The translations under genes and the position numbers were made by a program. A DNA stretch of 64,000 nucleotides from positions 58,152 to 122,151 of the forward strand of contig NZ_QLME01000001.1 of the NCBI RefSeq assembly GCF_003259895.1. The letters are read 5' to 3'. Under the pieces are notes generated by a model. It saw only the letters and a program-made list of their open reading frames with translations. It had not been told where the DNA came from and did no database searches. Source of the stretch: Halanaerobium saccharolyticum (GTDB taxonomy: Bacteria > Bacillota > Halanaerobiia > Halanaerobiales > Halanaerobiaceae). Shown piece by piece: positions 23,520-30,800 of the stretch (position 1 is the first letter of the stretch; each line of letters begins with the position of its first letter).

Positions 23520-24362
23520 CTATCCCTTAACAGCTCCGGAAGTAAGTCCCTGAATAAAGTTGCGTTGAAATAACATAAAAATTATAATCGAAGGTATGGT
23601 AGCCAGAGTTGTTGCAGCAGCCACTATTGTCCTATTACTTGATGTTTCACTGGATAGATTAGCCAGCCATAAAGGAAGGGTCATAATTGATTGCGAGTTT
23701 GCAACAAGTAGGGGAATAATAAATTGATCCCAGACCATGATAAAGGAAAATATGAACACTGCCCCAAAAACTGGCTTGGATAAAGGAAGAATTATTTTAA
23801 TAAAAATCTGCAGTGAAGAAGCACCATCTATCCTGGCTGATTCCTCTAATTCCGGTGGGATTTCTTTAAAGAATTCACTTAACATAAAAACACTAAAACC
23901 CCAGGGAATAACAGGTAAGATCATTCCTGCATAACTATTAATTAAAGAAAAAGTCCTTAATATTCTAAATAAAGGTACCATTAAGGCTGCATCAGGCAGC
24001 ATCATTGTGCCAATAAAAACAGTTAGCAAAAATACTGAACCTGGATAATTAAATCTGGCCAGAGAATATGCCGCCAGAGAACAAACTACTGTCTGCATGA
24101 TAACTCCAAAGAAAGCTACAATAACACTATTCAAAAAATAGCGCCAGATATTAAGTTCTGTCAGTGCATAAAAATAATTACTCAGAGTAAAATCTTCCGG
24201 AATTAAGGTGTAGTGTAAAAGACTTATTTCTCCGGGAGATTTAAATGATGCACTGAGCATCCATAAAAAAGGTAAAATCATAAAAATAGAAATCAGTATC
24301 AAAATAAAATATTTTACAAATTTAACAATAGACGTTTCTTCTTTAGCTTCGAGAAATATCAA
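23520..24362 (-). CDS. ABC sugar transporter permease (MalG type)
   Basis: A 280-residue inner-membrane permease with six helices. The EAA loop for docking the ATPase is EEFKE-like at EIPPELEESARIDGASSLQIF near residue 180. It forms the second half of the channel with the permease encoded directly upstream and takes sugar from the binding protein at 25325. It starts with TTG seven bases after AGGAGGG. The operon encodes no ATPase. The C-terminus FIQGLTSGAVKG is typical of CUT1 permeases for oligosaccharides. Confidence 0.92.
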   Translation of the reverse strand: MIFLEAKEETSIVKFVKYFILILISIFMILPFLWMLSASFKSPGEISLLHYTLIPEDFTLSNYFYALTELNIWRYFLNSVIVAFFGVIMQTVVCSLAAYSLARFNYPGSVFLLTVFIGTMMLPDAALMVPLFRILRTFSLINSYAGMILPVIPWGFSVFMLSEFFKEIPPELEESARIDGASSLQIFIKIILPLSKPVFGAVFIFSFIMVWDQFIIPLLVANSQSIMTLPLWLANLSSETSSNRTIVAAATTLATIPSIIIFMLFQRNFIQGLTSGAVKG

Positions 24363-24379
24363 TTTAATCCCTCCTGAAT

Positions 24380-25249
24380 TTATTGACTCTGAAACTTCTT
24401 CTGCATCACAGTTATGAACATAATGATTAAAAATAATACCACTGCCAGCGCTGCTCCATAACTCATATCCCAGTATCTAAATGACTGCTTGTAGATCCAG
24501 GTTGCTATAGTCTCCGTTCGATGCTGAGGATCTCCCGAAGTCATTACATAGGCAGGAACAAAAACCTTATAAGTTCTTAAAACTGCTAAAATTAATACCA
24601 TATTTATCGCATATTTAGTAGAAGGAATTATTATATAAATAAGTTTCTGCCACCAGTTTGCTCCCTCTACTCTTGCTGCTTCTAACTGATTCTGATCCAG
24701 ACCTTTAAGAGCTGCAATAAAAATCATCATATTATAACCAATTATTCGCCAGATCAAGGGAACAATTAGAGCATATAATGCTATGTCAGGATCTGCCAGC
24801 CACTGTTGGGCTGGTATATTTAAATAGGAAAGCAGAGAATTGAGCATTCCGGATTCCCCTGGGTAATACATCATCTTCCAGACAACGGCAATTATAGATA
24901 CTGTTGTAACTACGGGAATAAAAAACAAAGTTCGAAAGAGCTTCTGCCCTTTAAAATCTTCGGTTAATAATAAGGCAGCAAAATAGCCAAATACTGTACC
25001 AAAAATCACCACTAAAATTACTATTATAGTTGTGTTTTTTAATGCTAACCAGAATACTTCATCACTAAATAAGCGGATATAATTTTGCATTCCTACAAAT
25101 TCGCCTACATCTCTGCCAACCTGATGCACACTTAACCAGAATAAATTTAAAATCGGGAAAATTTTAAATACAGTAAAAAAGATCACTGCCGGTAAAACAA
25201 ATAGGATCGGGGTTCTGTATTTCAACATTTTCTTTTTAATATTCTTCAT
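24380..25249 (-). CDS. ABC sugar transporter permease (MalF type)
   Basis: A 289-residue six-helix permease of the CUT1 family. EAA loop: ALKGLDQNQLEAARVEGANWWQK near residue 205. Start at 25249 (ATG after AAGGTGG) rather than a GTG three codons upstream. It pairs with the MalG-type protein and lies after the binding-protein gene across a hairpin-containing gap. Substrate by context: rhamnose- and uronate-containing oligosaccharide. Confidence 0.92.
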   Translation of the reverse strand: MKNIKKKMLKYRTPILFVLPAVIFFTVFKIFPILNLFWLSVHQVGRDVGEFVGMQNYIRLFSDEVFWLALKNTTIIVILVVIFGTVFGYFAALLLTEDFKGQKLFRTLFFIPVVTTVSIIAVVWKMMYYPGESGMLNSLLSYLNIPAQQWLADPDIALYALIVPLIWRIIGYNMMIFIAALKGLDQNQLEAARVEGANWWQKLIYIIIPSTKYAINMVLILAVLRTYKVFVPAYVMTSGDPQHRTETIATWIYKQSFRYWDMSYGAALAVVLFLIIMFITVMQKKFQSQ

Positions 25250-25269
25250 TAATACCACCTTTTTAAGTT

Positions 25270-25306
25270 ATATACAAAGCGGATTGAAATATCCCGCTTT
25301 GTATAT
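25270..25306 (-). terminator. Intercistronic hairpin after the binding-protein gene
   Basis: A 13-base perfect stem (ATATACAAAGCGG with CCGCTTTGTATAT) between binding-protein and permease genes, with no T-run. This placement is typical of hairpins that stabilise the upstream mRNA so that binding protein is made in excess. The two other ABC operons in the window have hairpins at the same place. Confidence 0.75.
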
Positions 25307-25324
25307 ACTTATTGTTAGAACTAA

Positions 25325-26617
25325 CTATTCAGCCAGTACTCCCTGGTTTTCCAATTCTTCATTTATTTTTTGATCATATTCCTCTATTAACTGCTCATAA
25401 TTGGGAGCTTCTTCTGCCAGAAATACCTCCTGCATTAATTCTGCAGCAATAATCTTAATTGGATAATAATCAGGTATATTCTCCGGATACTTTATCTTAT
25501 TATTTAAAAATGCTTCCTGGAAAGGTTTGTCTAAAGGATTATTAGTTACTTTAGCGATATCGATATCTTTTCTTACAGAAAGCCGGACCGGGTTGGAAGG
25601 AGTAATCTGCATACCAAATTTCTGAATATCAGTTGTAGTCATGAACTGTGCTAGCTTTATTATCTCATCATATTTTTCCGTGTTGCTGTTGATATATATG
25701 TTTTCTCCTTCACCCAGACCAAAACTCCCGGCGGATCCAGCAGGCATGATGGCTGCCCCCACATTTTCTCTACCCAGAGCATTTGTATAAGCACTATTTT
25801 TATAATTAGCATGGAAAACCATCCCTACCAGTCCATTCTGAAAGGAAGAATATACTTCTGTAGACTGAGCAGCACTCACCCCGGGCGGTACTACTTCATA
25901 TTTATAAACTAAATCATGTAAAAACTCCAGTGCCCTAACTGTTGCATCAGTATCCAGATTGGAAATAAACTTTCCATTACCAGTATTTTTTATCAGACTT
26001 CCACCAGCCTGCCACAAAAAGTTCTGTAATGTCCAGTAACCATAACCCCTGGTGCTGGCCCCATATAAGCCAATTCCATAAGTATTGTCTTCTCCATCCT
26101 GATCTGGATCAGCATTAGTAAACTTTTGAGTAACATTAATTAGCTGTTCCCAGTTTTCAGGAAATTCTAATCCCAAATTGTCAAGCCAGTCTTTTCTGTA
26201 ATACATCGCCATCCCCTGTACCGACCAGGGAATTGCATAATATTTTCCATCTCCTGCCTGAGCTGTTTTCCAGGCAACATCCATTATCTGATCCGAAAAT
26301 TGATCTCTGTTAACTGATCTAACAAAATCATTAGTAACCCATTTACCTGTGGTGACATTATCTAATATCCAGGCATCGGGTAAACTGTCACTCATTCCAG
26401 CTGTTATTAACTTGTCTTCTAACTGAGGATATAAAACAAAATTCACCTCTATTTCTGGATTTTTTTCATTAAATCTTTCTCCAATTTGAGTATAAGCTTC
26501 ATTATATGCCATATCTCCTCTATGCCAGATTTCGATTGTAGTTTGAGCCATTACACTGGTAGATAGGAAAAAGAAGACTAGAACAAAAAATATGATTGAA
26601 GTTAATTTTTTGGCCAT
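25325..26617 (-). CDS. ABC sugar-binding lipoprotein-like/secreted protein (GH78 operon)
   Basis: A 430-residue extracellular solute-binding protein, family 1 (MalE-like). Signal peptide about 1-25 (hydrophobic SIIFFVLVFFFLSTSV, cut after VMA; no lipobox cysteine). The mature protein begins QTTIEIWHRGD and contains the family motif FNEKNPEIEV. It captures the oligosaccharide outside the membrane and hands it to the two permeases. First structural gene of the uronate/rhamnoside operon. Start: ATG after AGGAGGG. Confidence 0.92.
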   Translation of the reverse strand: MAKKLTSIIFFVLVFFFLSTSVMAQTTIEIWHRGDMAYNEAYTQIGERFNEKNPEIEVNFVLYPQLEDKLITAGMSDSLPDAWILDNVTTGKWVTNDFVRSVNRDQFSDQIMDVAWKTAQAGDGKYYAIPWSVQGMAMYYRKDWLDNLGLEFPENWEQLINVTQKFTNADPDQDGEDNTYGIGLYGASTRGYGYWTLQNFLWQAGGSLIKNTGNGKFISNLDTDATVRALEFLHDLVYKYEVVPPGVSAAQSTEVYSSFQNGLVGMVFHANYKNSAYTNALGRENVGAAIMPAGSAGSFGLGEGENIYINSNTEKYDEIIKLAQFMTTTDIQKFGMQITPSNPVRLSVRKDIDIAKVTNNPLDKPFQEAFLNNKIKYPENIPDYYPIKIIAAELMQEVFLAEEAPNYEQLIEEYDQKINEELENQGVLAE

Positions 26618-26675
26618 TTAAGACCCTCCTTATTGTTTTTGACTAAAATTAATGCTTATTTTATGCTTTGAAGAT

Positions 26676-26711
26676 AAAAAAATAGGGCCAGGAAAATAAA
26701 TTTCCCGGCCC
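26676..26711 (-). terminator. Terminator inside the leader of the GH78 operon
   Basis: Minus strand: GGGCCGGGAAA, 7-base loop, TCCTGGCCC, then TATTTTTTT. It lies between the small ORF ending at 26732 and the binding-protein gene starting at 26617. No gene other than that small ORF is upstream, so either the small ORF is its own unit or this is an attenuator of the sugar operon. Confidence 0.75.
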
Positions 26712-26731
26712 ACGGCCCCAGGTTAGACTCA

Positions 26732-26875
26732 TTATTTAATTTTTTCAATTTTAATCAGGAATTGTTCTGTCTGTCCTTTTACACTTACCTGCTTATGTTT
26801 AAAAAACTTATATACTTTATCGCTAGGTTGCTATTCTGCCAGATTTTTCTGTTCTACTCTAGAATTTTTATTCAC
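26732..26875 (-). pseudogene. Small ORF interrupted by TAG in the GH78 leader
   Basis: A 48-codon minus-strand frame from GTG (26875, with GGGAG upstream) to TAA (26734). Codon 15 is TAG. It reads MNKNSRVEQKNLAE, stop, then QPSDKVYKFFKHKQVSVKGQ and a further 12 basic residues ending IEKIK. The frame after the TAG looks coding (basic, balanced) and ends just before the terminator, as a real gene would. It is either a small protein inactivated by one nonsense change or a leader peptide; I recognise no family. The TAG could also be read through, but nothing here shows that. Confidence 0.4.
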
Positions 26876-26989
26876 AAGTATCACTCCCGGGAACTTTAAA
26901 GCCTAAATAAATTATTATCAAGATTCTGACTTTTTAACACTACAAGTCAATTCCACAAATTTACATGGTACTACTGTGGTATAATTATT

Positions 26990-27110
26990 AAGTAATTATT
27001 TTAACAGATCAGTGCCCACTGAAATCTGTTACCCTGATTTAATTAGTCTAATCCCTCCTTTTTAGAAGAACCCAGGGATAGCTCTGTCTATTTTTATTTC
27101 GGATTACAGT
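26990..27110 (-). ncRNA. Structured leader RNA of unknown class
   Basis: Minus-strand leader transcript. One strong hairpin is AACAGA..CAGT-GGGC-ACTG..TCTGTT (27030-27003); a second pairs ATCCCT with AGGGAT around 27050-27080. The segment lies directly downstream of a consensus promoter and about 100 bases before the interrupted small ORF. I could not match it to a known riboswitch. It may be a regulatory leader or a small RNA. Confidence 0.35.
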
Positions 27111-27134
27111 TTCTATTTATCACATTTCTATTTT

Positions 27135-27163
27135 ATTATAGTTATGATTTGGAACTTTGTCAA
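27135..27163 (-). promoter_or_regulatory. Consensus sigma-A promoter of the GH78 operon leader
   Basis: Minus strand: -35 TTGACA (27163-27158), 17-base spacer, -10 TATAAT (27140-27135), a perfect match to consensus. The start site would be near 27128, giving a leader of about 510 bases before the binding-protein gene. Confidence 0.85.
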
Positions 27164-27223
27164 GGTTTTTTTGGTTATTTTTTTATTTATTTTGATTATC
27201 TGATAAAATGGAGGTGTTTCTCG

Positions 27224-27561
27224 ATGACTTTTGGTGAAAATTTTAAAAAAAGCTAGAAAAAATAAAAACTTTACCCAAAATGAATTGGCAGAACTTGTTG
27301 GTTGTTAAACGTTCAACTATTGCAGGGTATGAAAGTGAAGAGCGGGAACCTTCATATAAGATATTAAAAAAAATTGCTGATGCTTTGGGGGCTAGTATTG
27401 ACTCTTTACTTGCTCATGATTATGATAATTACTTAATTAGTGAAACTCAGATTTCCAAAGAAATTTTAAATAACAAAGAACTTAAATCTCTTTTTAATGA
27501 ATTAAAGGGAATGGACTCAAATAATATTAATTTTTATAGTAAGGTTAATTCAATTTATTGA
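27224..27561 (+). pseudogene. Frameshifted XRE-type repressor
   Basis: Read with two corrections this is a Cro/CI-type regulator of about 111 residues: MTFGENFKKARKNKNFTQ, then NELAELVG, then KRSTIAGYESEEREPSYKIL and KKIADALGASIDSLLAHDYD, which is the complete helix-turn-helix domain plus a short tail. One extra A in an A-run (7 instead of 6 near 27245) and one extra base near 27302 break the frame. GGAGGTG precedes the ATG at 27224. Divergent from the GH78 operon leader. Either a decayed regulator or an assembly error in homopolymers. Confidence 0.7.
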
Positions 27562-27647
27562 GGCAGAGAGATAGTTTTTGTTATATATTACAACAAATTA
27601 AATAATAAGATATCACATCAATTTTCACACATCTTTTAAATAATATT

Positions 27648-27691
27648 AAAAAATCTGGCCCTTAAAGTATATTATTGCTTAAGAGCCAGAT
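27648..27691 (-). terminator. Terminator of the GH38 mannosidase operon
   Basis: Minus strand: ATCTGGCTCTTAA (27691-27679), 13-base loop, TTAAGGGCCAGAT (27665-27653), then TTTTTT. The stem is 13 bases with one mismatch. Confidence 0.85.
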
Positions 27692-27842
27692 TTAATATTC
27701 AATTCATTATAACGACTTTCAACTAATCTTCAGGCTCTAACTTTTATCTTTTTTAAAACATCTGAATAAATTTGTCTCAAAATAATTTCTACATTTATAT
27801 CTTTTTCCTTTATTTATTTAGTTGTTAATAATCAGCTAACCA

Positions 27843-30800
27843 CTATTCCAATTCAACCCTGAAAGTTTTAATCTCATATGGTTTTATTTTAAAAGTAAAT
27901 TCAGAGTCATTATTTTCAACTTCTTCTATATTTTCTTCAACCAGATTGCATTCAGCAACAGATTTAATTTTATTATCTAGCTTTACTTTTACAGTATCTC
28001 TTCTATTTCCATATTCATAAAACCTTAAAACTAAATCATCACTATACTCAGCTTTTTTAACAGTTTCTAATATTGTACTCTGTTCCTCTACCTCTATATA
28101 CGATTTTGCTTTTGCTTCAGTTCCATCTTCACCTTTGATTTTAACCTGTTGAACAGGATAATTTAGCTCATAAGCTTCTTTTGTAGTTTCAGCTTCAAAC
28201 CAGCTCCCGCCATGAGGATAAAGACTATAAGTAAATGAGTGGTGCCCCTGATCTGCTTCAGGATCAGGATAAATACCAGATTTAATTAATGTTAAACGCA
28301 TTGTTTGATCTTTTATGTCATATCCATATTTACAGTCATTTAAAAGACTTACTCCATAATCTCCCTCTGACAGATCTGCCCACTTATGTCCAACAACCTC
28401 AAATTTAGCATAATCCCAGCTTGTATTCCAGTGTGTATTTCTTTCAACATTCCCAAACTGAATTTCATAATTAGCTTTTGTAGTTCTTAAATCAACAGGA
28501 AAAGCTGTCTTTAAGAGAATTTGTTCTTCCTGCCAGTCAACCTCTGTTTCAAAATCAATTCGACGTTTATCAGCATAAATAATCAGATCCTGTTTTATAG
28601 TTGAATCTAAAAATCTCCATTCTAAATTAATTATTACTTTATCATTTACCTTATTTATTTCCATTTCTTTTAAGTCATCTATTACATATTCTTTATCCTG
28701 GTAATAGATATCTATATCCCAGGCATTAAACCTCATAGGACGATCTTCAAAAGCCTGCAGTAAATTAGCTGTCCCATTTTCAGTAATTATTTCCCGCTCA
28801 AATTCCTTATCATAGATGGAAACAATCTGGCCTTTATTATTTAGTTCTATTTTATAAAATTGATTTTCGATTGAATTAGCGCCAACTTTTAATTCACTGA
28901 CTGCTGTTTTGGCTGAGCTTTTCTTTATTCTTTTATCATCTGTAATAACAGGCTCTAAAGTGTTTTCATCAATTTCAACAGCATAATAACCACTGGCAGG
29001 GATATCCTTAATCTCATATTCTTTATCATTTAATTGCAGGTATCCGTCTCTTGACCAGGGAAGAGAATTATAGACAACAACTTTTTCAGCAGTTCCTTCA
29101 ATCTGAATGGCAATTTCTTCTAAACTTCTATTTAATAAAGTTTCAGTTTCCTGAAATAATTCTTTGAATTCTGCACTAGAATCTTCGTAAACTTCTTTAA
29201 TTGAAGACCCGGGTAGAATATCATGGAATTGATTCTTCAGTACTACCTCCCAATTTTGATTAATTCTTTCTGCAGGATATTCTAATTGACTATTTATTGA
29301 ACTGAAATTATTAAACAATTCTAGGTCATGAAGCCTTATTTCAGCTTTACGATTATTCTTTTTCACTTCAGCCTGAGAGGTATATGTTCCACGATGGTAC
29401 TCCAGATATAGCTCGCCATCCCAGACAGGCAGCTCTTTTTCTGCATCCATTTTTTGGGCTAAGTTTTTAAAATAATCTTCAGATTTCCCAAAATTTACTT
29501 TTGGCATTCCGGGAACTTCCTGCATTTTTTTACCTGACTCTATCATTTTTCTGGTAGGTCCACCACCGCCATCACCCCAGCCATAGGCAAGCAGCAGATC
29601 ATCATTTATATCTTTTTGTTGATAATTATCCCAGATCCCTTTAGCAGATTCAGGATTCAAAATTCCGTTATAAGTATAGAAAGGTGAATCATTATGAATT
29701 TCTGGAGTCGTAATAAAATGAGTCAGAACTTCTGTGCCATCTATACCTCGCCAGGTGAATGTGTCGTACTCAGGCCGGTTAAATTGACTCCAGCTAATTT
29801 TTGTAGTCATAAAGTATTTCATACCACTTTTTTTAATTATTTGTGGTAATGCCCATGAATAACCAAAAACATCAGGCAGCCATAAAATATTCCACTCCAC
29901 ATCAAACTCTTCTTTAATAAATTTCTTTCCATGTATAAACTGCCTGACAAGTGATTCTCCTGAAGTAACATTGCAGTCAGCTTCAACCCACATTCCACCT
30001 GTGATTTCCCATTTACCCTCTTTTATTTTTTCTTTAATTTTAGCATAAATATCAGGATAATCTTCTTTGATAAATTTATATAATTGAGGCATTGTCTGGA
30101 CAAAAGTATACTCCGGATATTCGTCCATTAATTTTAAAACAGTGGAAAATGTACGAGAACATTTTTCGCGTGTATGAAGCAGCTGCCAGAGCCAGGCCAC
30201 ATCAATATGAGAATGTCCAACTGCTGTAATAGCTGGTAAATTATCTTTTGTAGATGCATTTAATTTTTCTAGCTCTTTTTTTAGATAAATATTAGCTTTT
30301 TCTGCACTTAATAAAAATTCCTCAGAATTTACTTTTCTAAAATCTAAGATATTTATAGAAGCATCGAGAGTTCTTAATAATTTTTTCCTTAAATCTTCTC
30401 CTTCTTCCATAGTTTTTAATGATTCAAAGACAACTTTGGCTCTCTGATAAAAGTCTTCTAAATTTTTATCTCGATAAATTAAAGCAGCCTTTTTAAAAAT
30501 ATGCTTTTTGGCCTCTAAACCACTAAATGATTTAAGAGATATGTTTAACTCCGGACTTGAACTCAATTCTTTTTCATTTAAAAAAACTAAAGAATGACTT
30601 CTATCCAGGCCCTGCAAGGGCATTCCATTAAGATACAATAATGATTCTGAACCACTTAAATTCCCATAATGACCTTCCCCGGGGATAATTTCTAAATAAA
30701 CTTTTCCTTTTTTTAAATCCCATTCTTCAGGGACGGAGATTTCAGCATTAAACCAGCGGCAGACATTTTCCCCTCCCCATCTTTCTCCAACCTGAAGAAT

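Follow-up and report, generated by a model that had tools for sequence, protein, structure and literature searches.

The early region of phage lambda combines the CI repressor, the promoter PL, nutL, N and the terminator tL1. The leaders described here resemble this arrangement, with an HTH-type putative repressor beside a strong promoter, a structured leader, a gene for a small basic protein that, as in N/nut-type systems, is encoded between promoter and terminator, the terminator itself and an operon. In this comparison, for which lambda was considered by description only, the leaders differ in that the downstream genes are catabolic and that the corresponding unit of other Bacillota lacks the repressor. 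Ribosome-mediated attenuators of the trp type share the order of promoter, leader ORF, terminator and operon. In contrast to these, the present leaders have no regulatory codon run, belong to catabolic operons and encode a conserved protein, and their ORF is dispensable at single loci.

STAB-SD sequences stabilise mRNA by 30S binding. Like the mRNA stabiliser STAB-SD (cry3A; PMC4113751), the leaders carry an SD sequence, AAAGGAGG, without a consistent start codon; here, however, it lies inside a covarying helix and a stabilising effect is only putative. In Sinorhizobium meliloti the 14-aa peptide peTrpL of the Trp attenuator acts in trans on smeR mRNA together with antibiotics (PMC7298713). 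As for peTrpL, an attenuator leader would here encode a small protein that may work in trans, but the protein has 47 aa and the leaders are many and dispersed. The leader studied here is real and belongs to a family for which we found no description, and a conditional terminator is the best reading of it.

Parts of the window locus

The window is a 64,000 nt long stretch of the Halanaerobium saccharolyticum genome (contig NZ_QLME01000001.1). On its minus strand the original prediction had placed a perfect-consensus promoter, a strong double hairpin, a GTG-started frame with a TAG at codon 15 and an intrinsic terminator in front of the GH78 operon. All of these parts were found in their places and in this order (Table 1), with the double hairpin corresponding to the helices P2 and P3 at 27080-27002. 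The divergent XRE pseudogene and the multicopy nature of the leader were both absent from that first reading. The promoter is the sole perfect match within 24000-29500, and the transcript is expected to start at about 27128. The 466-nt window transcript is more stably folded than most of its shuffled versions (z -2.4).

Table 1. Features of the leader locus, in window positions.
Feature	Position	Strand	Basis or remark
Divergent XRE/HTH regulator gene, pseudogene (two frameshifts)	27224..27561	+	homology to intact XRE genes
Promoter TTGACA-17-TATAAT	27135..27163	-	12/12 match, 17-nt spacer
P1: RNA 5' end UGUGAUAAAU with UUAUACCACA	26975..27127	-	imperfect in window, clear elsewhere
P2: CCCUG with CAGGG around hairpin carrying SD-like AAAAGGAGGG	27031..27080	-	compensatory changes
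SD-like AAAAGGAGGG without start codon, inside P2	27062-27053	-	
P3 hairpin ACAGA..CAGUGGGCACUG..UCUGU	27002..27029	-	
Two invariant blocks AATTATACCACA and GTAAATTT(GTGG), possible alternative hairpin P4	26957..26986	-	pattern search
ORF ribosome-binding region UUCCCGGGAG; UUCCCGG complementary to terminator 5' arm, possible antiterminator	26884..26893	-	
Small ORF, 47 codons, inactivated copy of conserved basic protein	26732..26875	-	GTG start at 26875, TAG at codon 15, TAA ending at 26732
Invariant element CTGGGGCC-N-TGGGCCGGGAA, overlaps terminator 5' arm	26702..26721	-	
Intrinsic terminator	26676..26711	-	stem 26711-26685, T-run to 26676, -21.0 kcal/mol
ABC sugar-binding protein (SBP_bac_1), first operon gene	25325..26617	-	

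The XRE gene of the window carries two single-base frameshifts, and its homology to the intact XRE genes of the copies G000b and G011_72 is spread over three frames. In addition, the window has an imperfect dyad in its promoter spacer, which looks as though this putative operator had drifted.

Leader copies in the Halanaerobiales

Altogether 21 leader copies were found in 6 of the 38 Halanaerobiales genomes, a count that includes two remnants with little beyond the terminator; one extra tandem leader in G025 was counted separately. Three copies reside in the window genome, i.e. two besides that of the window, and the others in G001 (H. saccharolyticum), G007, G011 (H. salsuginis), G013 and G025, the last of which represents a different family of the same order and still has leader copies. 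Typically, a strong promoter is followed by a folded 5' domain, often by an ORF of about 47 codons, by an intrinsic terminator and by a catabolic or transport gene. Genes 3' of the leaders include ABC and TRAP binding proteins, a GntP permease, an arginine deiminase, a threonine-dehydrogenase-like ADH, a peptidase M20, a mandelate-racemase-family enzyme and an alanine symporter. In H. salsuginis the same GH78 operon lies behind its own leader copy.

Searching the 38 genomes for the pattern AATTATAYCAYA plus GTAAATTT provided 24 matches compared to 0 for the backwards control, and confirmed leaders with other terminators. Four matches of the AATTATAYCAYA pattern, in G033, G029, G016 and G015, possess none of the other parts and are not members, and the status of one further match (G025 C1:2430904) is ambiguous. 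In G035, two seeming members were discarded because they resemble matches to coding sequence. Other inspected GGGCC-N2-GGGCC matches in these genomes, which have no terminator with T-run, also look like coding sequence.

The perfect TTGACA-17-TATAAT promoter is present in 15 of the 21 copies, and an intact divergent XRE/HTH gene (HTH_3/HTH_26) adjoins 17 of the 21. Dyads such as GTTCTAATATAGAAC were found in the promoter spacers of G000b, G001b and G011_72 and represent possible XRE operators.

Three leaders of G025 are 77-100% identical (40-nt windows) from AGAAAGGAGG (or TTATCCC) through the terminator T-run and less than 60% identical outside that span, with differing adjoining XRE genes and operons. 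Judged from sequence, the leader cassette has been copied or converted as one piece, whose 3' end is fixed and whose 5' end varies.

The G025 leaders L139, L140, L141 and L142 (terminators at about 3444, 3490, 3813 and 3743) are almost identical from the SD helix through the complete T-run and unrelated outside this span; their XRE neighbours belong to different subfamilies and their 5' truncation is variable. L139 forms a tandem with L168 (G025:C1:1136789-1137460), with an antisense 72-aa HTH_26 gene in between and a TRAP operon thereafter. In the leader remnant L153 (G013:C19:1-400) the middle of the cassette is lost, and a C-terminal XRE fragment is almost directly fused to the terminator element.

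The pairing of the predicted double hairpin turned out to be conserved in homologous leaders. In an alignment of 15 copies, from which the pair counts were taken, 8 of the 16 pairs of P2 and P3 change on both sides. None of 500 shuffles reached this number, and slid controls gave 2-3. Where copies have long inserts, the SD helix was misaligned by MAFFT. Helix swap tests between copies, taking each helix alone, were not significant (p 0.09-0.24). In P1 the RNA 5' end pairs with UUAUAYCACA. This helix can be recognised clearly in G000b, G000c, G011_72 and G007, whereas the window has an imperfect version; in other copies the same strand has a competing pairing with UGUGG. P2 carries a AAAGGAGG-like motif in 15 of 15 aligned copies, i.e. 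a strong SD sequence in the 5' UTR that has no consistent start codon associated with it, an ATG following in two copies. A conserved upstream ORF after AAAGGAGG was rejected, as spacing and frames vary.

A multi-helix 5' domain, with P1 formed from the RNA 5' end and with alternative pairings of P1 and P4, would suit a riboswitch in which a metabolite bound by the P1-P3 domain governs the terminator. We consider this very unlikely, since the downstream pathways are unrelated, such that only a general signal would fit, since part of the domain is lost in several copies, and since neither a conserved pairing between the 5' domain and the terminator nor an Rfam covariance model scoring above its gathering threshold on the leader was found. 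Weak Rfam matches to CyaR and the L20 leader rest mainly on the terminator and were dismissed.

The small protein and proposed terminator read-through

An intact ORF of 46-51 codons is present in 12 leaders, and its protein has the core PGDKIYKLFxHxxVxIxG...FIIxI. Between G000b and G001b a dN/dS of 0.014/1.06 was obtained, with ratios down to 0.01, and ten of ten computed proteins are basic (pI 9.1-9.9). The substitution pattern shows that the ORF encodes a real small basic protein under purifying selection. It had no match in Pfam, NCBIfam and PDB, and searches with PDB profiles, NCBIfam and PHROGs as well as of phages and plasmids gave nothing convincing. An AlphaFold prediction from an input of two sequences was uninformative (pLDDT 50).

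In the window copy the TAG at codon 15 is accompanied by a change of an invariant Gly to Ser. At the TAG position, for which a sense codon in relatives had been considered, these indeed have Phe or Tyr. Recoding of the TAG is unsupported because of this and because the copy lost the invariant Gly. By its sequence the window ORF is thus a dead, decayed copy of the conserved 47-aa protein. The ORFs of G000c and G001a are cut by an internal deletion.

Of the attenuation device that had been proposed, the conserved structure and the terminator between promoter and operon stood up, and this before about 20 operons. The ORF as a classic leader peptide did not: it is under purifying selection, contains no run of codons for the amino acid of the pathway (in translations and alignment) and is missing or dead in 9 of the 21 leaders, all nine of which keep the terminator. 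The original prediction had offered a separate short gene, now inactivated and with its own terminator, as the alternative. This is partly right, because the ORF is a decayed conserved protein gene that is missing or dead in 9 of 21 leaders, all with terminators. Were an RNA of about 450 nt and the small protein the product, with the operon transcribed from another promoter, the real gene and the strong terminator would be accounted for; a discrete terminated RNA would also be expected, but so it would in any model. However, also where the ORF is lost the terminator remains on the same strand 38-195 nt from the first operon gene, and in most copies no 10/12 promoter lies between the two. We regard such an independent unit as improbable.

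The terminator-like pattern alone does not exceed chance (2 found, 2.4 expected), such that conservation has to carry the argument. On the 5' side of the terminator 20 nt recur in 19 copies with almost no change, compared to 0 matches of a backwards control pattern. In these 19 copies CTGGGGCC-N-TGGGCCGGGAA is near-invariant, whereas the 3' arm drifts and most of its changes are G-U-compatible; this points to a function of the terminator 5' strand beyond the hairpin. The GGGCC element is absent from three leaders (G011_53b, G013_27 and the upstream one of the G025 tandem). As in attenuators, the intrinsic terminator lies between the promoter and the first structural gene on the same strand.

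We favour, with a probability of roughly 0.55, a multicopy conditional-terminator cassette under XRE control, in which the small protein sets the read-through. From its position and the spacer dyads, the divergent XRE-type repressor would control the near-perfect promoter. The transcript would begin with the structured 5' domain, which is supported by covariation, and would continue in intact copies with the gene of the small basic protein, for which purifying selection was seen, and with the intrinsic terminator in the operon 5' UTR. With the terminator situated behind the only good promoter and ahead of the operon, the latter would depend on read-through for its expression. The early-made small protein would set the read-through frequency, in either direction, via CTGGGGCC-N-TGGGCCGGGAA. 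Conditional termination, the role of the protein and the signal are here what we infer from the arrangement of the parts.

Within the order, ORF and terminator element co-occur in the same 6 of 38 genomes, and no leader-bearing genome is without an intact ORF. In G011 and G013 the element-bearing leaders have no ORF, and the only intact ORF is found in a leader without the element. The small protein may therefore act in trans on the element, being encoded elsewhere in these genomes, although this argument is a correlation in few genomes, in which linked copies make a simple p-value too optimistic. Copies without their own ORF would be served in trans. The window copy, with its XRE gene and ORF broken and its promoter, P2/P3 and terminator intact, would for this reason rely on factors from the two other copies of the genome. 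A mutation of CTGGGGCCNTGGGCC would bear on trans action of the protein at the element. If such action occurs, control of a whole set of operons by the product of an attenuator would be a rare case.

Attenuation could instead proceed in cis only, with translation or stalling on the ORF choosing between SD-region pairing and the terminator and with no trans role of the protein. Upstream of the start codon, TTCCCGG is complementary to CCGGGAA in the terminator arm and can pair with it. In nascent-RNA folds of the window and three G025 copies this pairing forms before the 3' arm is made; with the 3' arm complete, the terminator is favoured by about 11 kcal/mol (window). G011_53b, which has a different terminator, has a matching SD segment, and three Bacillota operons have the stop codon of the ORF within the terminator hairpin, at a point where a ribosome that terminates would shield the 5' arm. 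In a permutation test the complementarity is marginal (34 of 720), two divergent copies are no better than shuffles, and the pairing is absent in ORF-less copies. A cis-only mechanism appears unlikely to us: the ORF stop in the Halanaerobiales is usually 9-13 nt before the GGGCC element and thus does not reach the terminator arm, the importance of the protein sequence is evident from dN/dS, and both the missing codon run and the terminators kept by the nine leaders without intact ORF speak against it. In the favoured conditional-terminator cassette, the unoccupied ribosome-binding region of the ORF might act as antiterminator with the terminator 5' arm, as a possible second layer in cis.

No papers describing the leader or the small protein were found in the literature searched, an absence that does not prove novelty. 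If our reading is true, these terminator-controlled leaders would form a new family whose RNA element and small protein are both undescribed, and halophilic anaerobes would control their catabolism at a second level.

The small ORF in distant Bacillota

A profile search across 398 genomes of the phylum detected the small protein outside the order convincingly in four distant Bacillota; a fifth, near-identical, came from the class of one of these genomes. There the small ORF is part of a glucitol-type PTS operon, after GutM wherever upstream DNA was available; GGGCC-N2-GGGCC and a hairpin come next. In one copy the hairpin arms are changed and GGGCC-N2-GGGCC is kept. These operons have neither the 5' domain nor an XRE gene, but a SorC-type regulator instead. 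The latter argues against the small protein being an anti-repressor of the XRE protein with an incidental terminator, as the linkage of ORF and XRE gene in most leader copies could suggest. The XRE genes beside the leaders moreover belong to several unrelated subfamilies, and we find this explanation hardly credible.

A broader version of the favoured reading can be put forward tentatively. The leader-encoded protein could be a dedicated termination or antitermination factor acting in trans on GGGCC-N2-GGGCC, such that one protein would link many unrelated catabolic operons. The unit would be common to the glucitol-type PTS operons of Bacillota, and the Halanaerobiales copies would be an XRE-controlled cassette before sugar, uronate, arginine, threonine and peptide operons. 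It also becomes testable why glucitol-type PTS operons of other Bacillota contain a terminator together with a small conserved ORF.

In the distant Bacillota (L202, L203, L204 and L201) the gene for the SorC-type regulator, GutM, the small ORF, the GGGCC-N2-GGGCC terminator and the EII genes occur together, and the operons also contain a DRL-domain oxidoreductase and pyruvate/acetoin-dehydrogenase-like genes.
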